Positions 25,357-38,160 of a DNA stretch of 54,123 nucleotides are shown one piece after another. Source of the DNA: Candidatus Gastranaerophilales bacterium (lineage in GTDB: Bacteria > Cyanobacteriota > Vampirovibrionia > Gastranaerophilales > Gastranaerophilaceae); assembly GCA_944323875.1 (NCBI GenBank), contig CALUUH010000011.1, forward strand, positions 1-54,123, given 5' to 3'. The position numbers and the translations under genes were made by a program. Below the pieces are notes generated by a model. It was not told the DNA's origin, ran no database searches, and saw nothing but the letters and a program-made list of their open reading frames with translations. Numbering within the stretch: position 1 is the first letter of the stretch; each line of letters begins with the position of its first letter.

Positions 25357-25389
25357 AAAAAATCCTGATTAAAATAATCAGGATTTTTA
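25357..25389 (-). terminator. Intrinsic terminator of the phage-island unit
   Basis: AATCCTGATT (25361-25370) and AATCAGGATT (25376-25385) form a perfect 10-bp stem with a 5-nt loop. On the minus strand it is followed by TTTTTTG. It overlaps the stop codon of the 541-residue protein. Confidence 0.85.
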
Positions 25390-27012
25390 AGAATTAAACA
25401 TTGTGAATACTTTTTCTACGTTTTTGCTTATCATACTCTTGACTGTATCATATTCAGTTGTTAGTGCTGAAATTTCCAGATCCAGATTTTTCATTTCAAT
25501 ATCAAGAGTTTCTTCTTTATAATTTAATTTATTTTTTTGAATAGTGTATTCGGATTCGGCCAGAGTGATAGCTTCATCATTTGTAACTTCACCGACACAG
25601 CCGTTAGCAGTATAGTGGTCTTGATAGTAGTACATATCTGTATTTAATGATGAAATAAAGTATTGTCCGTTCTTTAATGCATTTTGTAAGTAGTCATTAT
25701 CGGTTACATCCCCTGAAGAACGTGTCCAGCCGTGGTTACAAATGTTGTTATACAATACGTTGATGAAGTCAGCAATCATCATTTCTTTTTCTTCATAAAC
25801 AGATTCAGGTTGATTCATAACATACATATAATTGTAGTCATTTGTAACGAAGTTAGATTCTGATGCCTTTATGGAGTTATAGTATCCTGATTCGTAACCG
25901 CCAAGTGCAATAGCATAGTTCGTCAAGAACATTTCAACCATATTGGAAAGACTTATAAACATACCTTTACGATTGTTGTGTATTCCGCCATTCTGGTTAT
26001 TTGCCTCGGTTAAAATCTCATCGGTTGGAGTATTTAGAGGTGAACCGTAACTGTCAGTATTATCAGCTATTTGTTGTATAGTTTCATTCAGGGCAAATTC
26101 AAAAGCTTGAGTTTCTTCAGTTTGTGCATCAACCGGCAAGACGGCTCTAAATAAATTAGAGATATCGGCCAAAGCAGACATAGCAGCATTGCTTCCGTCA
26201 ATAGCGCCTTCTGTCGCACTTCTGTCTTTTACAAGATCCTTAAGTGCTTTAACAAAGTCTGTTTCATTCATATTAAAGTTGATAGTAACATTACTTGTCA
26301 ACAAATCAACAATTGTAAAATCTTCAGTGTATTTTGAACCGTTTTTATATACAGTTCCGTAAGTACCGTCATTTGTAAATGTTAATTTTGTTGCTAAATC
26401 ATTATATTTTGTATATTGCTCTGAGTTAGGATCAAATTGTTCTCTGAAAGCAGGATCTAAGACATTTTCAAAGTAATTGACCATTGTAGGAAGTGTCATA
26501 GCCTGAGCGACACTCTTATCAAGCATCTGTCCGCCAAAACCTGCTTTATCACTCCATTCAATAGTACCTTCACCTGTTGCACCGGTGATAACATCAGCAA
26601 CCGTACCGGATATATACCCAACACTTGCTAATGCTTCAACAAACCTGTTACGTCCATCAAGACTTCCTGTTCCTGAAACAGGATCTAAACCCGCAGCTTC
26701 ACAGGCTTTTGCTAATTGTTCACTTAATACAATCTGACCTGTTTTATTGGTCACAAGGAAAGGACTATAACCGTTTAATTCTGATGGTGACATCATTATG
26801 TCATAACTTAAATCATAAATAATGCCGTCCTCTGTTTCTCCATCCCAAACAAGTTTTGTTGCATCTAATGCTTTTTGATATTCTTCTGTAACTTTAGAAA
26901 GTTCACGGGTAATAGAAAGCTTTTCCTGAGCTATCGCCATAGAACGATATTCACAGTCAGCTTTTCTGGCAGTTATGGCTAAAAATCTTGCTTGTGAAGC
27001 CGCCAATCCCAT
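25387..27012 (-). CDS. Conserved-type protein of unknown function, coiled-coil C-terminus
   Basis: The protein has 541 residues. The N-terminus MGLAASQARFLAITARKADC with the following helical segment (residues about 20-50) looks like a lineage-specific module, somewhat like the helical ends of flagellar or secreted structural proteins. The middle (about 60-480) is acidic and Thr/Asn/Gly-rich, like an extracellular or structural domain. Residues about 485-535 form a coiled coil (LNYKEETLDIEMKNLDLEI). There is no signal peptide. It lies on the same strand about 125 bp after the terminase gene, so it may be the last gene of the phage-derived unit or an unrelated neighbour. The ATG follows AAAGGAA. 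Confidence 0.75.
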   Translation of the reverse strand: MGLAASQARFLAITARKADCEYRSMAIAQEKLSITRELSKVTEEYQKALDATKLVWDGETEDGIIYDLSYDIMMSPSELNGYSPFLVTNKTGQIVLSEQLAKACEAAGLDPVSGTGSLDGRNRFVEALASVGYISGTVADVITGATGEGTIEWSDKAGFGGQMLDKSVAQAMTLPTMVNYFENVLDPAFREQFDPNSEQYTKYNDLATKLTFTNDGTYGTVYKNGSKYTEDFTIVDLLTSNVTINFNMNETDFVKALKDLVKDRSATEGAIDGSNAAMSALADISNLFRAVLPVDAQTEETQAFEFALNETIQQIADNTDSYGSPLNTPTDEILTEANNQNGGIHNNRKGMFISLSNMVEMFLTNYAIALGGYESGYYNSIKASESNFVTNDYNYMYVMNQPESVYEEKEMMIADFINVLYNNICNHGWTRSSGDVTDNDYLQNALKNGQYFISSLNTDMYYYQDHYTANGCVGEVTNDEAITLAESEYTIQKNKLNYKEETLDIEMKNLDLEISALTTEYDTVKSMISKNVEKVFTMFNS

Positions 27013-27135: not shown

Positions 27136-28425
27136 TTAAAGAGTAATCGGCCAGTAAAAATCTACAAGATATGACGCGGCATCAAAAGGATGCGATAAGA
27201 ATTTTAACTGCTTGGATTGTTTGATTTGCTGGTAAGATGGTATATCAATTTGTGAAGTTCCTTCTTTATACCTCAAATTGTAAATATTGTACAGAAGTTT
27301 TTCACATTTTTTATCCACATAAAGGCATATTTCTCCGTCCGCTGAGCGTACTTTTGCATTGAATGCCATAATTCTGTTTTTGATTGGAGGATTATATGGT
27401 TTTATTTTAATCTCAACATCGTAACCGTATTTAAGCAGTGTTTTTTTGATGATTACATAATTGGTATATTCACTTGTACAGCTGCGATTGTCACCTGAGG
27501 CATCGCCATTTATAATGATTTTACCTTTATGGTTTGGGTAGCGCCTGCAAAACTCCTCACACGCCTTTGCAGTGGTTGTATTTTCCAGAACTATTTCATC
27601 AAAATAAAAAACCTTATCTTCTGTTTTGTGTGCAAGAACCCAGGCCATAGGATCTACGTTAAAGTCACAGCTTATATGCAGATCAAATTCCGGCTGGTAA
27701 TTTATTTCTTTAACATTTTCATCAGTAAAATCCTTTATGACAAGTCCGTTATTATATTCGGCATTTTGCGCAAGTACAAAGATTTTATAATACTGTTCAT
27801 CATATAATTTTTTTAATTCTTCACAATACCCTTGAGGAAGATAGATATTTTCTGTTGTAGGCGCAGTAATAAGCCTGTAATTAGGAGGCGGTTTTACCAC
27901 AAATGTTTTGTAAATCCAGCCGCGACACATCTCAGGATTTGTGTGACCGAAAATTCTGTATTTGAAATTTACCCAATTTTTCTTCACTTTTTGGCGCATA
28001 CGACTCAAAAGCATTAAAAAGGTATCATAAGGAATATCCGACATTTCTTCTATTTCGACGAATCCTAAATTTAATGATTTTAATTTGTTGGGCTCATCAA
28101 AATGTCTGAAAAGAATTTCTGACCCGTTTTTGAATGTCAATTTTTGCAGTGAAGCTGACCACACATAATCATGCCCGTCATAAAATCCCATATTATCAAG
28201 ATGTTCAAAATAGGTCTGTAAAGTCGTATCTCTAACCAGAGTGTAGGTTTGAGCGCCTACAAGCCCTCTTATACCCGGAAATTTATGACATAAAAGTATT
28301 CCGAGAAGCGAGCCGGAAAAAGTTTTGCCTGAACCGTAACCGCCTTGATATACTGCAACATCCAGCTTGTAATTATGAGGTATTTCCAAAAATTCGCGCT
28401 GTGCTTTCAACAACTTGTATTCCAT
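27136..28425 (-). CDS. terL: Phage terminase large subunit
   Basis: This DNA-packaging motor and nuclease has 429 residues. The ATPase domain has Walker A GGYGSGKTFSG (about residues 28-38) and Walker B LGFVEIEEMSD. The C-terminal nuclease domain shows acidic motifs in SCDFNVDPMAWVLAH and INGDASGDNRS. It fits the PBSX/Terminase_6 group. All key residues are intact. The start follows GAGGAAAC. The portal gene lies upstream, separated by a strong terminator, and the small subunit gene is two genes further up, so the order differs from the usual small subunit, large subunit, portal. Confidence 0.9.
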   Translation of the reverse strand: MEYKLLKAQREFLEIPHNYKLDVAVYQGGYGSGKTFSGSLLGILLCHKFPGIRGLVGAQTYTLVRDTTLQTYFEHLDNMGFYDGHDYVWSASLQKLTFKNGSEILFRHFDEPNKLKSLNLGFVEIEEMSDIPYDTFLMLLSRMRQKVKKNWVNFKYRIFGHTNPEMCRGWIYKTFVVKPPPNYRLITAPTTENIYLPQGYCEELKKLYDEQYYKIFVLAQNAEYNNGLVIKDFTDENVKEINYQPEFDLHISCDFNVDPMAWVLAHKTEDKVFYFDEIVLENTTTAKACEEFCRRYPNHKGKIIINGDASGDNRSCTSEYTNYVIIKKTLLKYGYDVEIKIKPYNPPIKNRIMAFNAKVRSADGEICLYVDKKCEKLLYNIYNLRYKEGTSQIDIPSYQQIKQSKQLKFLSHPFDAASYLVDFYWPITL

Positions 28426-28491
28426 AATTTTTTAAGTTTCCTCTTAATAAAATTTCTCCTTATTATTTGATATAGTATGTTATTTAGCGAA

Positions 28492-28540
28492 TAAAAAAAG
28501 TGCCGCCTGTAATTCCCGACGAAAAAGTATAAGACGGCAC
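28492..28540 (-). terminator. Terminator between portal and terL
   Basis: On the minus strand GTGCCGTCT pairs with AGGCGGCAC (one G:U) around a loop of about 31 nt, followed by seven T. It would reduce terminase expression relative to the portal protein. Confidence 0.65.
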
Positions 28541-28559
28541 AAAGAAGGCCTATACGCGA

Positions 28560-30254
28560 TTATTCAAGAGATTTATCCGCCAATTCCTGTTTATCATTTT
28601 CTGTTGATTTTTTATCAGCAAGAAAATTATTTGCATTCTCTATACCATACTGTTCCAATGCAAATTTAAAACATTCCAGCCAATTAACACTTTCTTTAAC
28701 ATCCGGTAATTCAGATAGTGTTTTAAGAACTTCAAACAATTCTTTAATACGGCTTTTACGTGCAAAAGCTGCTTTGCGATCTCCGTAACGATAAATGTAG
28801 TTTGAATTTCTTATATTATCGTCAATTTCCAGAAATTTGGTATTCCCTTTATCATTGACTGCAATGAGTTCTTTTCCGAGCTTGAAATTCGCGATAATTT
28901 CTGCTGTTTTTTCAACCATCGGAATAATAATTTTGCGGTTTATGGCATCCAGCATCATATTCAACCTTGCTTCCTGTCCGTTAGCCGAATAATTAAGTTC
29001 GGTTGCAGTTCTGTTAACAGGCTGAATATTGCCGGCCATGTTTTTGAATATTCCGGTTGCACTTTCTATAGTGCTTTTGAAATAATTCAGAAAATCCCAG
29101 CCGACCATTGCTTTGTCAAATTCAAGCGGAGTCGGCGGCTGCGGCATCAAAGCTGCGTCATATTCAATAATTTTGCCGGGATGTACATCCTGTTGGCCCT
29201 TAAAACAACCTTTTGGTGCCAGATACGGAGGATTCATCATCAGTGCAAGTGCATCCAATTGCTTGTTTAAAATAGTTGAAGAGATGCTATTCAAAACAAG
29301 TGCAACTCTGAGCGGCGAAATTCCGCGTCCGGTCCTCGGATCTTCTATTATATTTGCATAAATAAAAGGATTTATAACAAACGGATTGGCCTCAAACCTT
29401 ATAATTTCACGGCGTCCGGCCACAACAACTATTCTGTTTTTCAAAACCTCTCCGCTTGAAAGTTCTATATCACCCCAGTATTCCAATATTTCAAGTTTAT
29501 TGTCATCTACTGACCTGTCATTTTCTGTTCTTCGTTTTTTCGCCACCACTCCTCTCAATATTTCTATTTTCATATCGTTAAGCAAATTGTTTGATTTGTC
29601 AGAAATAATTTCCTCCATACTGCTGTATGTCCTGTAAATTTTGGCACAGGAATCCCAGTTATCTGCATTAAATTTGTCAAAAACAAAATCCTCAGGTTTG
29701 ATATGCTTAATTTTTGCATTGTCATAAATCAATTTATCTTCAATAACAAAACCTGAGTCGTTGTTTCCTGCAAGCTGTTCTTCAAGAGTCAATGCACGTC
29801 TTACTTGTTTAACTTTTGTTTCCCAGCCGACAAATAATGTACTTTCACCGGTTTCTACAATACTGTCTATAATTTTGTCTAACACATTTTCAAAATTCAT
29901 TTGTTCAAAAGTGTTGACAAGCATAGCTTTTTGCCGATTTGCATACATTTGTGTCTGCGGGGTTGTCCCTGATACATCAAACATTGCATCAGCATGCGAA
30001 TATAAATTCTGACTTAAATGTGATTTTAATGTCTGAGCCAATTCATAAATATCCGGCAAAGACATTTTTGTATCCCACGCGTTTATGCGCGGGTAATCAA
30101 CGTCATAAATGGCATTCCGCACCATTTTTATATCACTCAGTTGAGAACTGCGTCTGTTTTCAAAGTCATCATATCTTTTGCATATTGTATTAACAAGATT
30201 AACTTCTTCTCCAAGGCTCAATTCTCTGGTTAAATCGTCTGTTTGAATTTCCAT
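28560..30254 (-). CDS. Phage portal protein
   Basis: This is the portal (head-tail connector) ring subunit, about 564 residues from the ATG at 30254 (the frame is open to 30272). Its length and the central DPRTGRGISPLRVALVLNSI, followed by helices and the C-terminal SATGIFKNMAGNIQPVNRTA, match podovirus-type portals. It is N-terminally rich in helices and acidic at the end. There is no frameshift or internal stop. It is preceded by a small unknown gene and the small terminase gene. Confidence 0.85.
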   Translation of the reverse strand: MEIQTDDLTRELSLGEEVNLVNTICKRYDDFENRRSSQLSDIKMVRNAIYDVDYPRINAWDTKMSLPDIYELAQTLKSHLSQNLYSHADAMFDVSGTTPQTQMYANRQKAMLVNTFEQMNFENVLDKIIDSIVETGESTLFVGWETKVKQVRRALTLEEQLAGNNDSGFVIEDKLIYDNAKIKHIKPEDFVFDKFNADNWDSCAKIYRTYSSMEEIISDKSNNLLNDMKIEILRGVVAKKRRTENDRSVDDNKLEILEYWGDIELSSGEVLKNRIVVVAGRREIIRFEANPFVINPFIYANIIEDPRTGRGISPLRVALVLNSISSTILNKQLDALALMMNPPYLAPKGCFKGQQDVHPGKIIEYDAALMPQPPTPLEFDKAMVGWDFLNYFKSTIESATGIFKNMAGNIQPVNRTATELNYSANGQEARLNMMLDAINRKIIIPMVEKTAEIIANFKLGKELIAVNDKGNTKFLEIDDNIRNSNYIYRYGDRKAAFARKSRIKELFEVLKTLSELPDVKESVNWLECFKFALEQYGIENANNFLADKKSTENDKQELADKSLE

Positions 30255-30292
30255 AATTGTTAATTTCCTCATATTATAATTCTGTAAAAAAG

Positions 30293-30655
30293 TTATTTAC
30301 AAAATTCTGCATACTCAAATTTGACAAACACATCTCCTGCCGCAAATGAAGATATTTCTCCTTTTGCCATTTTGTCTCTTATATTGTTCTGAACACCTAT
30401 AAGAGCTTCAGCCTGAATACCGTTTATACAGGTTTCTGTTTTAGATTTTTTGTTATATATACGGAATACTGATTTGGCAGAAAATATCAAATTCGCCGGT
30501 ACTTTGGAAATATCAGTTTCATGTGTTATTTTTTTTACTTCTTTTGCTTTTTCAATTTCCGCAATATACTCATTTTCTATTTTCTTTCTAATCAAATCAT
30601 CAAGAGATGCGTTTGATAAAAGGATTTGTTCTGCATTGTTATCCTGATTTTTCAT
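30293..30655 (-). CDS. Small phage-island protein of unknown function
   Basis: The 120-residue protein is basic and helical in its N-terminal half (LDDLIRKKIENEYIAEIEKAKE), with a short beta-rich C-terminus (NLIFSAKSVFRIYNKKSKTE). No family is recognised. The ATG follows AGGAG. It sits between the small terminase and portal genes, close to both, so it is probably part of the packaging module. Confidence 0.7.
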   Translation of the reverse strand: MKNQDNNAEQILLSNASLDDLIRKKIENEYIAEIEKAKEVKKITHETDISKVPANLIFSAKSVFRIYNKKSKTETCINGIQAEALIGVQNNIRDKMAKGEISSFAAGDVFVKFEYAEFCK

Positions 30656-30679
30656 TTTTTAGTCTCCTATTGTTAAGTA

Positions 30680-31111
30680 TTAAATTTTTTCATCATCCAG
30701 ATTGGAAATTGTAATAATTTTGGCCGGCTTGTAATCTTCGGCCTCAGCCTCATTAAAGCCCAGATATTTACAAAGGTTTTCCAGCGCTTTCAGGCCTGCC
30801 GAAGTATCACGGAGTTTTCTTTTTCCGGTTGCACAGCCTTCCTTATCAAGAATATCTTCTTCAGTTAATGAAAATTCTGCTATCTGTAATAATTTTTGTA
30901 TTACATAGCCCTTGTGTACGCATAGTGAAGATATTTGATTTTTTATTTGAAGTTTTATTTCATTTATTACAAATTTGTCAGAAAGTAATCTTTCAGCGAC
31001 CTCTTTCAAATCTTTTGATTTATATCCGGCCCGCTTGGCCGAAAGCTCGCCATCTAAAGATTTTATGTACTCTGACACAAATTTTTTTTGTTGATTTGTT
31101 AATTTTCTCAT
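30680..31111 (-). CDS. terS: Phage terminase small subunit
   Basis: This 143-residue protein recognises DNA for packaging. The N-terminal helix-turn-helix begins LTNQQKKFVSEYIKSLDGEL followed by SAKRAGYKSKDLKEVAERLL, typical of the Terminase_2 (XtmA-like) family. A central helical region then leads to the conserved GLKALENLCKYLGF. There is no strong ribosome-binding site before the ATG at 31111. Confidence 0.88.
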   Translation of the reverse strand: MRKLTNQQKKFVSEYIKSLDGELSAKRAGYKSKDLKEVAERLLSDKFVINEIKLQIKNQISSLCVHKGYVIQKLLQIAEFSLTEEDILDKEGCATGKRKLRDTSAGLKALENLCKYLGFNEAEAEDYKPAKIITISNLDDEKI

Positions 31112-31263
31112 CGTTAAAAGTTTACATTTCTCAATATAATTTGTGTTTTTATGAAAAAAATTGTATAATAACCATGCTATTTATATTTCGGCTAGTGTAA
31201 ATCTTAACAGGGGGCAATGAATTTTACTTCCTGTTTTTTTTGCCTTTTTTTAAATAGCGGCGG

Positions 31264-31902
31264 CTATCTTCTGAAAAGCCTTACAAAAGGCGTATAATCA
31301 GCATCTATGGCAATCTTTGAACGCATATTTGCCAGCGCTGAATTATACATATCCTGCCAGTAACTGAATTTTACATGCTCCGGCTCACCTTTAAGACGCA
31401 GGCATGTTCCGTATACCAGAATTTGTTCAACAAACGGTTCCGGAATTAAAGGTTTGTCATCAGCATTTTCAAGATACCTTTTTTCAAGATTATCAGAAGA
31501 TATAGCCAGATTACGGGTATAGTAAATGATATTTATAAGTTTATCTTCCTCAAATTCAGGGAATAAAAGCTTGTCGTTAAATACACTAAAAATTCTTGCT
31601 TTATCGCGGCATGTTAAAAATAGTTGAAAATTTTCACAAAAGTTGTATTTTATGCCATCAATATATACCGCAAGTATTCTCCCGTATATTGTATTTTTTA
31701 ATTGTCTTGTGCCGGCCGGCAGATTAAATTCTTCCTGACGGAGCAAAAAATTCCAGTTCATAGAATTGCAAACATCCTGTGCAACAAGGTTTATATAGTT
31801 CTTGATACGTTGATGTTCCGGTCTTGTCAACTCCGAAAAATCATCGGTCTGACGGAAATTTAATTCTGACAGGCATTTGTTTATTATCTCTAAATAGTTC
31901 AT
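31264..31902 (-). CDS. Probable phage head-tail adaptor protein
   Basis: The 212-residue protein begins MNYLEIINKCLSELNFRQTD and has the pattern of SU10/P22-type adaptors: an N-terminal helix, the AQDVCNSMNWNFLLRQEEFNL segment, a beta region with GRILAVYIDGIKYNF, and a C-terminal helix pair. It would form the ring below the portal. The ATG follows AAGGAG. Assignment is from fold-level resemblance and position, so moderately sure. Confidence 0.6.
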   Translation of the reverse strand: MNYLEIINKCLSELNFRQTDDFSELTRPEHQRIKNYINLVAQDVCNSMNWNFLLRQEEFNLPAGTRQLKNTIYGRILAVYIDGIKYNFCENFQLFLTCRDKARIFSVFNDKLLFPEFEEDKLINIIYYTRNLAISSDNLEKRYLENADDKPLIPEPFVEQILVYGTCLRLKGEPEHVKFSYWQDMYNSALANMRSKIAIDADYTPFVRLFRR

Positions 31903-31920
31903 ATTTAATCTCCTTTAAAT

Positions 31921-31940
31921 AGCGGGGCTGAAGCCCCGCT
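31921..31940. terminator. Hairpin between scaffold and adaptor genes
   Basis: AGCGGGGCT and AGCCCCGCT are perfect 9-bp arms with a GA loop. A weak TATTT tail lies on the minus strand, so it may be an attenuator or an mRNA-stabilising hairpin. Confidence 0.55.
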
Positions 31941-31945
31941 GTTTG

Positions 31946-32545
31946 TTATTGAATATTACCTTTTCTAAGCTGGTCAAAAATTGCAGCTTCATTTTTAAGA
32001 AATTCTTTTGTAGACATTTTTCCTATTTCTGCACGGGTAAATGTACGATTTTTGTTGCCGTCATATCCATAACCTTGAGCATTGGAGGTCATCCGGCGTT
32101 TGTCCGAATCATTTTGATTTTTCAGATTTTTTTCGTAATTAGCCTGCTTGTTGTATTTTTCAACGGCTTTATTTTCAATATTGCCGAGCATGCCGGAAAG
32201 TGCCTGATAATTCTCATTACTCAAAGACGGGACTAATTTCTTCAAATAGTCAAAAATTTCACTGTAATTACCGGAAGCACTATAATCACCATTTTGTTCT
32301 GCAACAGGTTCTTTTGCCTGTTCTTGTGCAGGCGGTTCATCAGTTTTTGCCGGAGTTCCAGCACTTTGAGGTTCAGAAAAACCTGAAAACTGTTTTATCC
32401 ACGCCATACCCTGTTCCCGCGGAATAGCACCTGATTTAACCAGTGATATAATTTTTTCCATATCTTCCATAACATCCGGTGTTACGGCCGGTTTATCATT
32501 AGATGCCGGTGTTTGATTTTTATTTTGTTCATTTGTATCTGCCAT
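31946..32545 (-). CDS. Probable phage scaffolding protein
   Basis: The protein has 199 residues from the ATG at 32545, which follows AAGGAG; the frame extends to 32614 without support. It is hydrophilic and low in complexity, with Gln, Asn, Pro and Ala (AQEQAKEPVAEQNGD), plus helical segments typical of scaffolds and a basic region KNRTFTRAEIGKMSTKEFLK near the C-terminus. It lies directly after the capsid gene, separated by a terminator. No sequence family is certain; the call rests on composition and position. Confidence 0.6.
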   Translation of the reverse strand: MADTNEQNKNQTPASNDKPAVTPDVMEDMEKIISLVKSGAIPREQGMAWIKQFSGFSEPQSAGTPAKTDEPPAQEQAKEPVAEQNGDYSASGNYSEIFDYLKKLVPSLSNENYQALSGMLGNIENKAVEKYNKQANYEKNLKNQNDSDKRRMTSNAQGYGYDGNKNRTFTRAEIGKMSTKEFLKNEAAIFDQLRKGNIQ

Positions 32546-32583
32546 AATTTCTCCTTTTTTAATTTTTCTATTTGTCGATTTAA

Positions 32584-32612
32584 GAAAAGCGGGTGTAAAA
32601 ACATACACCCGC
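32584..32612 (-). terminator. Terminator downstream of the capsid gene
   Basis: GCGGGTGTA and TACACCCGC form a perfect 9-bp stem, followed by TTTTC on the minus strand. It would make the capsid message the most abundant of the unit. Confidence 0.75.
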
Positions 32613-32628
32613 ACAAAATCACTGGGGG

Positions 32629-33522
32629 TTATGCTGCGCTAAAGATAACTTTAGCCAAAGCTTTTGGTTGTACGGTTTTTGCACCGTATAAGTACAAGCC
32701 TCTGACAAGGTCAGAGAAGCTGTCTTTATCTCTAAGTGTTTCAATTCTTGCAAGTTGGGAAGCGAATGTTATAGCTTCATTTGTACCGGCCATAACATAA
32801 TATTTGCTGTCCACAGCAGTAAGATTTGTTGAAACTAAAACATCCATACCGGCAATTCTTCCGATAGCACCTTCTCTCAATGTTGTATCAGCAACATTAT
32901 GTGCGCTGATAAATTCAGTACTCTGAAGCAGGTATGATTCAATAGTCGGGTTAATAACTACCCAAGGGCGAACACCTGTGTGTACAGCATCTGAATTTTT
33001 CAAGCATAATGCAAGTTTTACAAATTGTTCATAGATTGTTGTTTTGCTTAATGCAATTGGTGCTTCATCAGTCCCGACAGTGTTTGACTGTTCTACATTA
33101 CTGTGCATTGAAAGTAAGTATGTGTCTTGAACTTCTTCAATAGCTTTTTTAGCGTTCGCAAGATGTGCCAGCATAATATCAGTATTTGCCTGAACATGCG
33201 CAACATCATTAATTTTGAACGCAAAGAATTTTTTCTGATCAATAACCAGATCTTGAGATTCCGGTTCTAATTCACTGTATGTAATGTTTGAAGAGCTGAG
33301 TGTTGAAACAGTTACTTTTGCAGGAGTGATAATTTTTACGGTATCACCCTGATTAGCTATTTCACCTTCATAATTTCTGTTAACGCATTGTAGCATTACA
33401 CATTCTTTTTCCAGTAATGCGTTGAGTTTTTGGCTCCATATTTCCGGGACAAAAACTCCATAGCCTTTTTGAGGTGTTGATGAAGTTGATTGTGATGATT
33501 CACCATTTGATAATTCTGCCAT
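32629..33522 (-). CDS. Phage major capsid protein
   Basis: The 297-residue protein starts at the ATG at 33522 behind GAAAGGA; the frame reaches 33567. It begins with a short Ser/Thr-rich arm and then VFVPEIWSQKLNALLEKECV, the usual entry to an HK97/P22-type coat fold. The mid part (QKKFFAFKINDVAHVQANTD) and C-terminal GRIAGMDVLVSTNL with LRDKDSFSDLVRGLYLYGAK are typical. It is intact. It is separated from the scaffold gene by a terminator, consistent with high expression of coat protein. Confidence 0.85.
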   Translation of the reverse strand: MAELSNGESSQSTSSTPQKGYGVFVPEIWSQKLNALLEKECVMLQCVNRNYEGEIANQGDTVKIITPAKVTVSTLSSSNITYSELEPESQDLVIDQKKFFAFKINDVAHVQANTDIMLAHLANAKKAIEEVQDTYLLSMHSNVEQSNTVGTDEAPIALSKTTIYEQFVKLALCLKNSDAVHTGVRPWVVINPTIESYLLQSTEFISAHNVADTTLREGAIGRIAGMDVLVSTNLTAVDSKYYVMAGTNEAITFASQLARIETLRDKDSFSDLVRGLYLYGAKTVQPKALAKVIFSAA

Positions 33523-33612
33523 TTTGATTTTCCTTTCATTTTTTAAAGTAGTACACCACGACGGCACAAAGAAAAAACAATGTGCATCGTATTTAAGATA
33601 GTTAATATAAGC

Positions 33613-34101
33613 CTATCCCTGAAGCATATACCATTTTACTTTTGAGCGTATAAATGCTCCCGCATCATTCTGAGCGACCCAGGGATAAGGAGGAATATAT
33701 ATGATGTCAATTTTACCGGCACTGCTGGTATTTGGATTTTTCAAACCAAATTCATAATGGGTCATCAGTGTATTCGGAGAAATATTAATCTTATATTTTT
33801 TTGCCAAATCAGCACATAATTTCATAGCGGCTTCAAATTGCTTAGCCGTAATCGGATAACTTCCGCATTCGTTTCTGCTTTTGAAACCGGCCATTGCACA
33901 AAGCGCAATACCGATAGAACCTGTGTTTCCGCCGCCTGTATGTGCTGCATATTGACCCGGTTTACATATCTCGTTATTCTCCGGTTTAAATTTCCCGTTA
34001 TGAATATTTCCATCCTTGTCTACAAGATAGTGATAACACTCTAATTCATGTGTATTTGGATGGTATACACCGGCAGTCCAATGTAATATAATTCGTTTCA
34101 T
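33613..34101 (-). CDS. N-acetylmuramoyl-L-alanine amidase (endolysin-type)
   Basis: This 162-residue Amidase_2/PGRP-like enzyme cuts the amide bond between muramic acid and the stem peptide. It has the zinc-site motif LHWTAG at residues 6-11, then YHYLVDKDGNIHNGKF and AAHTGGGNTGSIGIALC. There is no signal peptide or wall-binding repeat. Placed in a phage island, it is probably the lysis enzyme. No holin gene is obvious. The start follows AAGGAAAC, 8 bp after the LuxR-type gene. Confidence 0.88.
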   Translation of the reverse strand: MKRIILHWTAGVYHPNTHELECYHYLVDKDGNIHNGKFKPENNEICKPGQYAAHTGGGNTGSIGIALCAMAGFKSRNECGSYPITAKQFEAAMKLCADLAKKYKINISPNTLMTHYEFGLKNPNTSSAGKIDIIYIPPYPWVAQNDAGAFIRSKVKWYMLQG

Positions 34102-34109
34102 AAGTTTCC

Positions 34110-34340
34110 TTAAATATATTTTTTGTATTTTTTATTGAAGTTAGTTACCCATTTGGGATCTTTCAGGATATAGGCTATTACAGCGTGGCCCCTGTTTTTT
34201 GCGTGTAATTTCAGTACAAGTCTGTCTACATGGGTTCTTACTGTCCCGTATTTAATTTTTAATTTATTTCCTATTTCCTTGTCAGAATACCCTAAGGCAA
34301 CCAAAGCTAACACTTCTTGCTCCTTTGGTGACAGTTCCAT
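34110..34340 (-). CDS. Small LuxR/GerE-type DNA-binding regulator
   Basis: At 76 residues the protein is little more than a LuxR-type helix-turn-helix (LSPKEQEVLALVALGYSDKE, then IKYGTVRTHVDRLVLKLHAK). There is no receiver or sensor domain. The ATG follows AAGGAA. It leads the amidase and capsid genes and is separated from the gene upstream by a terminator, so it may control the late genes of the island. Confidence 0.85.
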   Translation of the reverse strand: MELSPKEQEVLALVALGYSDKEIGNKLKIKYGTVRTHVDRLVLKLHAKNRGHAVIAYILKDPKWVTNFNKKYKKYI

Positions 34341-34427
34341 CTTAATTCCTTCGTAGTTATAGAGTATCGCTTTATTATTAGCTTACATAAAAAAATGTAT
34401 GTTTTGCTTAAAAATAATTCCTATCTA

Positions 34428-34453
34428 AGAAAAAGGGAGGAGCAATTCCTCCC
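34428..34453 (-). terminator. Terminator after the zinc-ribbon gene
   Basis: GGGAGGA and TCCTCCC, with a 5-nt loop, are followed by TTTTTC on the minus strand. It insulates the LuxR-type gene from the promoter region at 35 kb. Confidence 0.75.
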
Positions 34454-34497
34454 GCTAAGAGTAAGATAATTTAAAAGGATCTTATATATTTTGGATT

Positions 34498-34890
34498 TCA
34501 TGGATTTAATTTCAGTACACCTAAGGATTTTTTATCAATATTTTCATCACGTCCGAGCCTCATATTGCTTAGATTTGAATAACATCTTTTTATCACGCCG
34601 TATTCGTTGTAATTCAGATAAAAAGTACCGTAATTGGTATAATTAATATGCCTGATTTCATAAAGAATGTTTTTCCTGATTCTGTTAAAGAAATTCTCGG
34701 CTTTTTTATTCTTTTTCCGAACAGTAACCACATCGCCCTCCGAGGTAATCCTTGTCAGTTGAACGACCTTATGACCGCAGGTTGGACATTTGGTCAAGAG
34801 ATCAACTTCGCAGATTAAATAACCTTGTTGCGGCACGAGTCTAAACGTCCTTGTCTTATGCAAGGCGCCACAGCAATGAATATATCCCAT
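34498..34890 (-). CDS. Small zinc-ribbon protein of unknown function
   Basis: The 130-residue protein starts at the ATG at 34890 behind AGGAG; the frame reaches 34938. It contains two cysteine pairs (HCCG near the N-terminus and KCPTCGHKV at about residue 36), a short zinc ribbon, followed by a basic region (VRKKNKKAENFFNRIRKN). It could be a nucleic-acid-binding regulator of the phage-derived island; no known family is recognised. Confidence 0.7.
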   Translation of the reverse strand: MGYIHCCGALHKTRTFRLVPQQGYLICEVDLLTKCPTCGHKVVQLTRITSEGDVVTVRKKNKKAENFFNRIRKNILYEIRHINYTNYGTFYLNYNEYGVIKRCYSNLSNMRLGRDENIDKKSLGVLKLNP

Positions 34891-35016
34891 TGAGATCTCC
34901 TCATGCACAGATATAAAAAATCTGCACAGTAACTCCACGAGCAGTAAGCAAACAACTTTACCATCTACTAAGGCGGGTTTTTGTTCCCGCGGGCTTGAGC
35001 CTTAACTTACATATTC

Positions 35017-35179: not shown

Positions 35180-36250
35180 TTATTTTACGGATAATTCGCA
35201 GCACATCTGGCATGCCCCAAAAACTTTTGCAGCCTTCAAATTTTTCCGGAAACACCTGTAATGAGGGAGATTGAAGGCATCCTTCAGGGGCATCCCTTTT
35301 ACATTGCCTATTTTTTGTGAAAGACAAGGGTAAATATCTCCGCAAGGATTTATCATCATGTTTGAGTAAGGATACATACAAGGTTTATATATTTCATTTA
35401 CCGGCTTATCAGCAGGATAGTTAAAAAATTCTTCTATTTTGGCAAGCGGGTCTTTAGCATATTCAAACTTCGGCGAATAGCGGATTTGCACCTTTGAATG
35501 TTTTTTTAATGCCTCGAGTTCTCTATAAACCTCTTTAAAATGTTCTATATCAAAATATTTTTGTATAGGATAATTTTCGTTAAACTCCGGCACAAAACTG
35601 TCAAATAACACTGAATTTTGCTTCAAATTATTATTGCGTAAAAACGAAATGGAAAGGAAATTAAATTTCATCTCATCGCACATCTTGTAAAGTTTTACCA
35701 GATCATCGAGATTATTTTCCAGAACAATTGTTTTAATATCAATCATCGGGCGTTTTTTGCGAGCGTTCATTTTTTCAAAATTAGACATTATTTTGTCAAA
35801 AATTCCGGCTTTAGCCCTGTTTTTGTCATGATTTTCTCCGTAACCGTCTAAAGATACAGACAAAAGCATCATTTTAGATTTGATGAAAGCGTCTATAATT
35901 TCATCGTTTATCAAAATACCGTTTGAAACAACATTCAATTTGCCAAAAGTTTTTTTTGCGGTTCGCATCAGAATATCTATGAAATCTTTGCGTATTAAAG
36001 GTTCTCCGCCCACAAGCGTAACAAAAGAATACCAAGGAATCTGGTCAATAATTTTAAACCATTCTTCTGTTGTCAATTCGTCTTTATCTCTTGAATTACC
36101 GACATAACAGTACGGGCACTGCAAATTACAGCGGTATGTCAGTTCAAAAAAATACCTTAAAGGCATTAAGGCTTTGCCGGAATTTGACATATAAGAAGGC
36201 ATTGCATATAAATTTCGTCCTATATCAAACAGATTTGACAAATTTTTCAT
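35180..36250 (-). CDS. Radical SAM protein with SPASM-like C-terminus
   Basis: The 356-residue protein has the iron-sulfur motif CNLQCPYC (C-x3-C-x2-C) at about residue 41. GGEPLIRKDF, typical of the SAM-binding strand, follows, and then a cysteine-rich C-terminus (CMYPYSNMMINPCGDIYPC, later CQMCCEL) of SPASM or Twitch type that may hold extra clusters. Such proteins modify peptides or act in cofactor and lipid biosynthesis. Its start overlaps the 3' end of the TrpD-like gene by 26 bp, so the two are translationally coupled. The substrate is unknown. Confidence 0.88.
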   Translation of the reverse strand: MKNLSNLFDIGRNLYAMPSYMSNSGKALMPLRYFFELTYRCNLQCPYCYVGNSRDKDELTTEEWFKIIDQIPWYSFVTLVGGEPLIRKDFIDILMRTAKKTFGKLNVVSNGILINDEIIDAFIKSKMMLLSVSLDGYGENHDKNRAKAGIFDKIMSNFEKMNARKKRPMIDIKTIVLENNLDDLVKLYKMCDEMKFNFLSISFLRNNNLKQNSVLFDSFVPEFNENYPIQKYFDIEHFKEVYRELEALKKHSKVQIRYSPKFEYAKDPLAKIEEFFNYPADKPVNEIYKPCMYPYSNMMINPCGDIYPCLSQKIGNVKGMPLKDAFNLPHYRCFRKNLKAAKVFGACQMCCELSVK

Positions 36251-37244
36251 TTTTTAAACCTTTCAATACCTCAAGTGCCTTACCGTTTTCAATATTAAAT
36301 TGAGCCTGTTTAATACCTTCCTGAATAGTTTTTGCACGGCCTGACAGATAAATCATTGCACCTGCATTCAACAATATAACATCAAGCATTGCGCCCTTAC
36401 GTTTATTTTCAAAAATTTCAGTTATAAGTTTTGCGTTTTCCGGTCCGTTTCCGCCTTGAATTTCTGAAAGTACCGCGCATTTAAAGCCAAAATCTTCAGG
36501 CTTAATCATATATTCTTCAATCTCGCCGTTTTTGAGTTCTAAAACTCTTGTCGGCGAACAAATACTTATTTCGTCAATATTAGGCTCAAGTCCGTTTACG
36601 ACAAGTGCTCTGTCTGTTCCGAGTTTTTTAAGCGCATAGACAATTTTGTCACACATCTGATTTGAAGATACGCCGAGTAATTGTGCATCCGGAAATGCAG
36701 GATTAATAAGCGGGCCTAAAAAATTGAATATTGTTTTTATACCGATTTGCTGCCTTATAGGATTGTTTACCGACGCAAAATCATTGAAATAAGGTGAATG
36801 TACAAAAGTTATGCCGTGCCTGTTAAAAAAGTCAACTGCTTGCTCCGGCGTTCTTGTTATATTGATACCGAGAGCGCTCAAAAAATCAGTACTTCCGCTT
36901 GCGCTTGTAATTGAGGAATTGGTCTGTTTTACAACGTTTACCCCTGACGCTCTTGCCACAATTGAAGCAGAGGTTGAAATATTAATTGTTTTTGACATAT
37001 CAGCCCCTGTTCCGCAGCTATCAACAATATATTTGTCAGTGATAACACGTCTTGCATAATTACGCATATTAGCGGCAAATGCATAAAATTCCTCCGCGCT
37101 GACGCCTTTTGCGCTTACTGCTGTTAAAAATGCGGCAATTTGTGCATCTGATACTTCTTTGTGTGCAATACTATCAACTGCAAACTTTATTTCATCAAAG
37201 GACAAATCTTCCTTTGCCATTAATTTTTTTAATAAACTTTTCAT
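36225..37244 (-). CDS. TrpD-like phosphoribosyltransferase (divergent)
   Basis: The 339-residue protein has the fold and motifs of anthranilate phosphoribosyltransferase: VDSCGTGADMSKTINISTSA, ASGSTDFLSALGIN, FNFLGPLINP and PNIDEIS. The PRPP loop motif GTGGD reads GTGAD, and the highly conserved KHGNR reads KQTNS, which is unusual for a true TrpD. No other trp gene is near, and the next gene is a coupled radical SAM protein. It may be TrpD, but a different phosphoribosyl acceptor in a joint pathway is a real option. Confidence 0.78.
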   Translation of the reverse strand: MKSLLKKLMAKEDLSFDEIKFAVDSIAHKEVSDAQIAAFLTAVSAKGVSAEEFYAFAANMRNYARRVITDKYIVDSCGTGADMSKTINISTSASIVARASGVNVVKQTNSSITSASGSTDFLSALGINITRTPEQAVDFFNRHGITFVHSPYFNDFASVNNPIRQQIGIKTIFNFLGPLINPAFPDAQLLGVSSNQMCDKIVYALKKLGTDRALVVNGLEPNIDEISICSPTRVLELKNGEIEEYMIKPEDFGFKCAVLSEIQGGNGPENAKLITEIFENKRKGAMLDVILLNAGAMIYLSGRAKTIQEGIKQAQFNIENGKALEVLKGLKNEKFVKSV

Positions 37245-37252
37245 AATTTATA

Positions 37253-38050
37253 TTATCCAATTAAAATTAAACTTACCCATATAAAGAGCATACCGGTGAA
37301 AATTCCCACCATTGAAAGGTGCCAGTTTCCGTATTCACGTGCCAGCGGCAGTAAGGTATCAAAAGACAGGTAAATCATAATACCTGCAACCGCGGCAAGA
37401 AGCATCCCCACCATAACTTGCGGCAAGAACAAGCCGAACAGCAGCATACCTATAAGTGCGCCGATAGGTTCCGTAATACCTGATAATGCCGCGTACAGCA
37501 TTGCATATCTTTTTTTCCCTGTTACATGATAAATCGGCAATGCGACAGCAATACCCTCCGGAATATTGTGAATAGCGATAGCTATGGCAACAGACAACCC
37601 GAGAGTTAAATTTTGTGTGGTTGTAAGAAAGGTTGCCATACCTTCCGGAAAGTTATGAACACATATTGCGATTGCTGTAAATAATCCTGCACGTTTAATT
37701 TTATGATTATGCAGACAAGGTTCATTTGGGTGAAGCAGTTCATCTGGATCAATGTGATCAGGCAAAAAATAATCTATAAGCATTGCGATAAGTACACCCA
37801 GAATAAACCCTAACAAAACAAGCCATTCATGTATATTTGGGAAATTAACTGAAAGCATCTCTCCGGCCTCAGGAATAATATCAGTAAAAGATAGAAATAT
37901 CATTACACCGGCCGAAAAACCGAGCCCCACCGATAAAGCTTTTAAATTATCTTTCTTAACAACAAATGCAATTCCTGCCCCTATAGCAGTAGTTAATCCG
38001 GCTAAAAGGGTCATTGTCATTGCAATTCCAAAATTTTGCGGTAATTCCAT
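37253..38050 (-). CDS. ZIP-family zinc/metal transporter (ZupT-like)
   Basis: The 265-residue membrane protein has eight predicted helices. The metal-path motifs are CVHNFPEGMATFLT and AIHNIPEGIAVALP, with a histidine- and acid-rich loop (HIDPDELLHPNE) between helices 3 and 4. These are diagnostic of the GufA/ZupT branch, which imports zinc and other divalent metals. I chose the ATG at 38050, 6 nt after GGAGG; the frame reaches 38077. It lies 8 bp upstream of the TrpD-like gene. Confidence 0.93.
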   Translation of the reverse strand: MELPQNFGIAMTMTLLAGLTTAIGAGIAFVVKKDNLKALSVGLGFSAGVMIFLSFTDIIPEAGEMLSVNFPNIHEWLVLLGFILGVLIAMLIDYFLPDHIDPDELLHPNEPCLHNHKIKRAGLFTAIAICVHNFPEGMATFLTTTQNLTLGLSVAIAIAIHNIPEGIAVALPIYHVTGKKRYAMLYAALSGITEPIGALIGMLLFGLFLPQVMVGMLLAAVAGIMIYLSFDTLLPLAREYGNWHLSMVGIFTGMLFIWVSLILIG

Positions 38051-38160
38051 CATATACCTCCGCAAATATATTATCACAAAAATATATTCATAATGCGTAG
38101 TTTGAATAATAAAGACATACCTTTTACAGCAATTATGTGAAAAATATTTATCCGCGAATA

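Follow-up and report, generated by a model that had tools for sequence, protein, structure and literature searches.

A TrpD-like protein (TrpDL) encoded in a Candidatus Gastranaerophilales genome, from a cyanobacterial relative living in the gut, is, on the evidence of sequence comparisons, probably an active phosphoribosyltransferase that works outside tryptophan synthesis, descends from the TrpDs of its own order, and is probably coupled in translation to the adjacent radical SAM/SPASM gene; we put the probability of this reading at roughly 0.6. TrpDL is a member of the TrpD family, stands alone in genomes in which TrpC was not found, forms a single clade, evolves under selection, and recurrently overlaps the radical SAM gene. 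The locus was identified in a 54,123-nucleotide stretch of DNA (contig CALUUH010000011.1, positions 1 to 54,123), referred to here as the window, and its features are listed in Table 1.

Table 1. Features of the TrpDL locus, in coordinates of the window.
Feature	Coordinates	Strand	Length	Details
Radical SAM/SPASM gene	35180..36250	-	356 aa	CxxxCxxC C41, C45, C48; C-terminal C291, C309, C333, C347, C350, C351
Overlap (radical SAM start inside TrpDL 3' end)	36225..36250	-	26 bp	
TrpD-like (TrpDL) gene	36225..37244	-	339 aa	GTGAD residues 78-82, KQTNS 106-110, Arg164, DE 224-225
ZupT-type zinc transporter gene	37253..38077	-		Directly upstream, 8 bp from TrpDL

The two open reading frames, the extent of their overlap, and the motifs GTGAD and KQTNS in TrpDL had been described in a sequence-only reading of the window, and all were confirmed. 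TrpDL scored 356.3 bits against the TrpD profile TIGR01245 (cut-off, 199.05), matched the two TrpD-fold domains (PF00591, 260.2 bits; PF02885, 72.3 bits), and had a TrpD, 9ucw, as its top solved-structure chain (E = 2.1e-74), while its score against the YbiB profile PRK08136 was 25.6 bits, under the cut-off of 185. GTGGD, KHGN, and a DE pair are named as TrpD motifs in an extract of PMC5537072. We compared 27 TrpDL rows with 42 TrpDs, of which 19 were the others of the order and 23 came from other genomes of the phylum, with trp pathways unchecked in these 23; the alignment columns leave out one TrpDL cut by a contig end (L135) and one TrpD that exceeded the cut-off with no locus given (G004). 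Gly78, Asn109, Arg164, Asp224, and Glu225 are invariant in the 27 TrpDL rows, and their equivalents in Mycobacterium tuberculosis are PRPP, metal, and anthranilate contacts according to the accessible part of PMC9835598. The metal-binding DE pair (D224 and E225) and the acceptor arginine (R164) are likewise present in 42/42 comparison TrpDs.

Only two letters, Ala81 and Gln107, were exclusive to TrpDL in this comparison. GTGAD was found in 27/27 TrpDL rows, whereas position 81 is glycine in 41 comparison TrpDs and serine in one; since the final D is moreover missing from two of the 42, the GTGGD signature is not strict. Position 107 carries Gln in TrpDL versus His in 42/42 comparison TrpDs. 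The letter counts from the 27 rows are biased, as the loci were found with peptide patterns of which one contains KQTNS; a bias-free count at position 107 gave Q in 11/11 TrpDLs versus H in 19/19 other TrpDs of the order. Asn154, which replaces a histidine in the 27 TrpDL rows, is also seen in two comparison TrpDs, and KHGNR is not diagnostic at its G or its R either: of the 42 comparison sequences, 13 lack G at the third place and 14 lack R at the fifth. The sequence-only reading had taken the motif changes as a sign of a new phosphoribosyl acceptor, and this argument was not supported. According to the available text of PMC10520873, exchanging His107 or His154 of Sulfolobus TrpD for alanine changes the enzyme little, and Arabidopsis PAT1 has a Gln where the Sulfolobus enzyme has His107. 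Given these reports and the variation within the comparison set, the motif changes do not show an altered acceptor, and we rejected them as proof of one. A structural comparison of the TrpDL pocket was also dropped because the predicted model (mean pLDDT, 72.0) was poor around the active site, with values below 50 over residues 78-86, 107-116, and 128-182.

It is the orphan status of TrpDL, not its motifs, that carries the argument. The observation that no trp genes lie near the gene could be widened to the whole host genome, a 1.94-Mb assembly that is 97.11% complete. TrpDL was the sole PF00591 match, leaving no second, canonical trpD, and across the 49 contigs we found no TrpC (PF00218), TrpF (PF00697), chorismate-binding enzyme (PF00425), or kynureninase. 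The TrpB profile (TIGR00263) gave two matches, neither over its cut-off (best E, 2.3e-7), of which the one shown scored 30.3 bits and spanned positions 314-383 of 385 only. The trp search set consisted of TrpD, TrpC, TrpF, TrpB, and chorismate-binding enzymes. Across the order, TrpD exceeded the cut-off in 31/146 genomes. In 20 of them it was not of the TrpDL type or, for G004, was not seen, and TrpC was present in 19 of these 20, the exception being G017, which is 82% complete. TrpDL was found in the other 11, i.e., the host, five others sampled of its genus, one g4 genome, and four g6 genomes. All 11 TrpDLs read KQTN and GTGAD, and the 19 other alignable TrpDs read KH. Two conserved peptides were then used to scan genome_contigs, which is described as covering 84,980 species; 27 TrpDL loci were returned, 10 of them from order genomes already counted and 17 new.

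TrpC was detected in none of the 11 order genomes with TrpDL and in none of the 17 newly found genomes (completeness not given), which makes a tally of 0/28 genomes carrying TrpDL and supports a role outside tryptophan synthesis. These genomes are MAGs, in which single absences may be assembly gaps. TrpF and chorismate-binding enzymes were each absent from 11/11 order genomes with TrpDL. Kynureninase exceeded its cut-off in 0/16 genomes searched, in a search whose control exceeded it in 2/14 only; the L127 genome gave one weak match (18.1 bits). As neither chorismate-binding enzymes nor kynureninase were found, TrpDL has no known internal source of anthranilate, and, with no TrpC or TrpF found and no TrpB over cut-off, phosphoribosyl-anthranilate has no known use in the host. 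The sequence-only reading would have been refuted had TrpDL been the only trpD of a genome with complete tryptophan biosynthesis and an unconserved neighbour. This is not the case: although TrpDL is the only trpD found, the genome lacks tryptophan biosynthesis and there is partial conservation of the neighbour. As a separate observation, TrpB exceeded its cut-off in 44/146 genomes of the order versus 20 for TrpC, so many genomes may use imported indole or employ TrpB otherwise.

To place TrpDL among its relatives, a maximum-likelihood tree of 69 rows was used, rooted for drawing only and leaving out the truncated L135 copy and a degenerate TrpD-like group of genus g17. All 27 full-length TrpDLs fall into a single clade (support, 99/96), whose nearest relative is the TrpD of G017 (100/98, on a long branch). 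A further 12 order TrpDs group with these at 100/100, so that 13 of the 19 other order TrpDs sit with TrpDL; the remaining six, including five from the family to which TrpDL belongs, cluster with the sequences from elsewhere in the phylum. From its position among these sequences, we infer that TrpDL arose from the TrpDs of the order, either by vertical inheritance or by transfer within the order. Its descent within the family need not have been plainly vertical, since the family's own trp-bearing genomes (G115, G123, G124, G126, and G141) have TrpDs that are not the nearest to TrpDL.

The degenerate family left out of the tree occurs in eight g17 genomes without TrpC (L080:8899-9912 and L081-L087), and no TrpF was found in the seven of these genomes searched. 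Its members have lost GTGGD, KHGN, and most catalytic letters and share a new conserved stretch around EAWKNKIF.Y. Their neighbours are largely fixed and include, in L080, S16, an aminotransferase, and an unknown 248-aa protein, and the G089 copy is short (183 aa). Judged by its sequences, this family looks like a TrpD pseudoenzyme.

The radical SAM gene directly follows TrpDL in 13/27 full-TrpDL loci, the window included, and the TrpDL stop overlaps the radical SAM start in 12 of them. By longest-ORF starts, the overlap is 26 bp at five loci, 29 bp at one, 23 bp at two, and a 1-bp stop/start at four, and the 13th locus has a 6-bp gap. The start lying within TrpDL is credible because the conserved N terminus of the radical SAM protein begins with the same residues in genomes without TrpDL. 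ZupT is found upstream of TrpDL in 20/27 loci. The pair is not merely a by-product of the ZupT region, since it also occurs in other surroundings without ZupT at five loci (L127 and L129-L132). Ten neighbours of various TrpDL copies were scanned, among them PGK, GT9, UDP-sugar dehydrogenase, BioY, GNAT, SecA, a type III secretion system-type ATPase, and a VKOR/DsbA protein, with no common theme beyond ZupT and the radical SAM gene.

Each gene of the pair also occurs alone. With an orthologue of the radical SAM protein defined as a match above 250 bits (the best match of the next genome falls to 107.6 bits), 74 of the 146 order genomes carry the orthologue, 11 carry TrpDL, and 7 carry both. The seven co-occurrences compare with 5.6 expected (P = 0.28) and are no better than chance, but the two genes lie side by side in all seven. 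Of the 74 genomes with the orthologue, 67 are without TrpDL, and ZupT is kept together with the radical SAM gene in TrpDL-less genomes of g2, g4, g8, and g10. Conversely, the four g6 genomes keep ZupT-TrpDL without the radical SAM orthologue. In TrpDL-less genomes, the gap between ZupT and the radical SAM gene was searched for traces of TrpDL, with no convincing match in any of the 10 loci, out of 20, that span both genes; the best match (E = 0.011) was in L094, where another gene fills the gap. This gene (L094:4000-4728) encodes 242 residues, is methyltransferase-like by eye, and occupies the place that TrpDL holds elsewhere.

TrpDL is under purifying selection and evolves faster than its neighbours. 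Its dN/dS was 0.049-0.175 in 10 of 11 pairs, the 11th being saturated, while the radical SAM gene gave 0.019-0.065 (6 pairs) and ZupT 0.020-0.058 (8 pairs), ratios that are rough where dS exceeds 1, as several values do. In all six pairs with both genes, dN and dN/dS were lower for the radical SAM gene than for TrpDL.

These data bear on the proposal of a joint pathway, already made in the sequence-only reading, in which TrpDL and the radical SAM/SPASM enzyme would catalyze successive new steps, first phosphoribosylation of an acceptor and then a radical reaction on the product. Conservation of the pair was borne out insofar as adjacency and overlap recur in more than one setting, behind ZupT and elsewhere, and the genes are neighbours wherever the 146-genome sample holds both. 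The chance-level co-occurrence, the many orthologue genomes without TrpDL, the g6 genomes without the orthologue, and the unequal evolutionary rates count against it, and we consider a joint pathway possible but rather unlikely. A fuller version, an undescribed Gastranaerophilales pathway in which TrpDL would phosphoribosylate some acceptor that is not anthranilate and the radical SAM/SPASM enzyme coupled to it would then use radical chemistry to remodel this acceptor, seems to us less probable again.

The radical SAM protein itself matched PF04055 (84 bits) and PF13186 (35.3 bits), each over cut-off, and its CxxxCxxC and C-terminal cysteines are invariant in 18 aligned rows. No NCBIfam cut-off was reached among the 25 families listed of 72 matched, and the score against StsB, a RiPP maturase family, was 92.3 bits, for a cut-off of 625. 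In a fold search with the predicted structure (mean pLDDT, 82.8), the model most resembled SkfB (Z, 22.4; rmsd, 3.5 over 274), followed by DesII (21.1), PqqE (20.7), SuiB (20.5), and BlsE (19.8). The scores of these top enzymes are close together, so no function follows from the search, and families absent from the list are not thereby excluded. The five enzymes have CxxxCxxC and SPASM-type cysteines in common with the radical SAM protein, as do, by profile, AhbD and NirJ.

Next to the radical SAM gene, the window holds a phage-type block of about 8 kb (27136-34938, minus strand) with head, packaging, tail, and endolysin genes, including terminases, a portal-type adaptor, a major head protein, and an amidase; none of the nine proteins of the block that were scanned matched an integrase. 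Genomes from five genera carry the block next to the radical SAM gene, or next to TrpDL in the case of L126, whereas it is absent from this place in G079, G117, and G060. Relatives were found in L070, L072, L074, L075, L089, L091-L094, L096-L098, L108, L126, and L166-L177. In 12/12 far-side flanks, a relative of the fast-evolving gene of about 540 aa in the window (25387-27012) comes after the terminase, and SecA comes next in five of these flanks, as far as the retrieved stretches reach. Across 14 genomes, pairwise identities of the block genes correlate with those of two host genes (r, 0.44-0.82) no less well than the two host genes do with one another (r = 0.34). The block looks like one vertically inherited, domesticated prophage and is perhaps a gene-transfer-agent-like element.

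As to mechanism, TrpDL would be a catalytically intact phosphoribosyltransferase with the anthranilate phosphoribosyltransferase (AnPRT) fold, standing alone in genomes whose other trp genes were lost or never reacquired. Because the PRPP and metal residues and the carboxylate-holding arginine are kept, it most likely moves phosphoribosyl from PRPP to a small carboxylate-bearing amine, which would be imported or made by another route. Where the radical SAM gene is kept, translational coupling probably links the synthesis of the two proteins, and the TrpDL product may be a substrate of the radical SAM enzyme.

The acceptor may still be anthranilate, scavenged from other gut bacteria and phosphoribosylated for storage, for detoxification, or toward an unknown product. 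The anthranilate-contacting residues Arg164 and Asn109 are kept in 27/27 TrpDLs, and the Gln reported for PAT1 belongs to an enzyme that uses anthranilate (PMC10520873, in the text available). The product, however, would have no known use, as discussed above, and we consider this reading rather unlikely. Alternatively, TrpDL might combine PRPP with an enamine and so provide phosphoribosylamine for thiamine or purines; an extract of PMC5348995 reports that the TrpDs of Escherichia coli and Salmonella form phosphoribosylamine with PRPP and 2-aminocrotonate, and such a reaction needs no anthranilate, in keeping with the missing chorismate enzymes. This explanation appears improbable, however, as 135/146 order genomes are without TrpDL. 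That TrpDL is a decaying remnant of the trp pathway, kept by chance beside its neighbours, would suit the absence of the rest of the pathway and of TrpDL from several related g4 and g6 genomes, but is very improbable given dN/dS values of 0.05-0.18, invariant active-site letters, and a reading frame that is open in all 27 full-length copies (the 28th, L135, being the one cut by a contig end). A role in filling a gap in NAD synthesis was rejected, since quinolinate phosphoribosyltransferase (PF01729) was present in 24/24 genomes and NAD synthesis therefore does not need TrpDL; nicotinate phosphoribosyltransferase (PF04095) was found in 0/24 genomes, with and without TrpDL.

Compared with known systems, TrpDL shares with TrpD (TIGR01245; a type III phosphoribosyltransferase in the accessible part of PMC9835598) its length, both Pfam domains, the DE pair, and the acceptor arginine. 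The PRPP loop is nearly complete, with GTGAD for GTGGD, and TrpDL also differs at 107 and 154, where His is replaced by Gln and Asn, respectively. Unlike the AnPRT of the trp pathway, TrpDL occurs in a genome with no other tryptophan gene over cut-off among those searched. The TrpD2/YbiB DNA-binding proteins likewise use a TrpD fold outside tryptophan synthesis, but TrpD2 is said in the same source to have lost the PRPP motif, whereas TrpDL keeps it save for one Gly-to-Ala change and retains DE. The PAT1 of Arabidopsis thaliana, in turn, shares the Gln but serves tryptophan synthesis (PMC10520873, text as available).

AnPRT is called the only member of its phosphoribosyltransferase type in the portion of PMC9835598 available, which lists few AnPRT homologues with a different function, one being TrpD2. 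No paper on Gastranaerophilales and TrpD came up in literature searches. Those for anthranilate phosphoribosyltransferase with radical SAM showed nothing on TrpDL in titles and abstract openings, and one of the papers matched uses the two terms in sections that have nothing to do with each other, in the part accessible. Searches for orphan or neofunctionalized TrpD, Melainabacteria tryptophan, and Gastranaerophilales auxotrophy gave nothing on TrpDL in the titles and abstract openings of the matches listed. In the TrpDL clade, nature offers an enzyme that has departed from its pathway with its catalytic residues kept, and it provides a ready set of enzymes for asking how AnPRT acceptor choice evolves. 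A lone trpD in MAGs also calls for caution against inferring tryptophan synthesis. If TrpDL and the radical SAM enzyme do act in a joint pathway, a tryptophan enzyme would have been recruited for making a new metabolite or cofactor.
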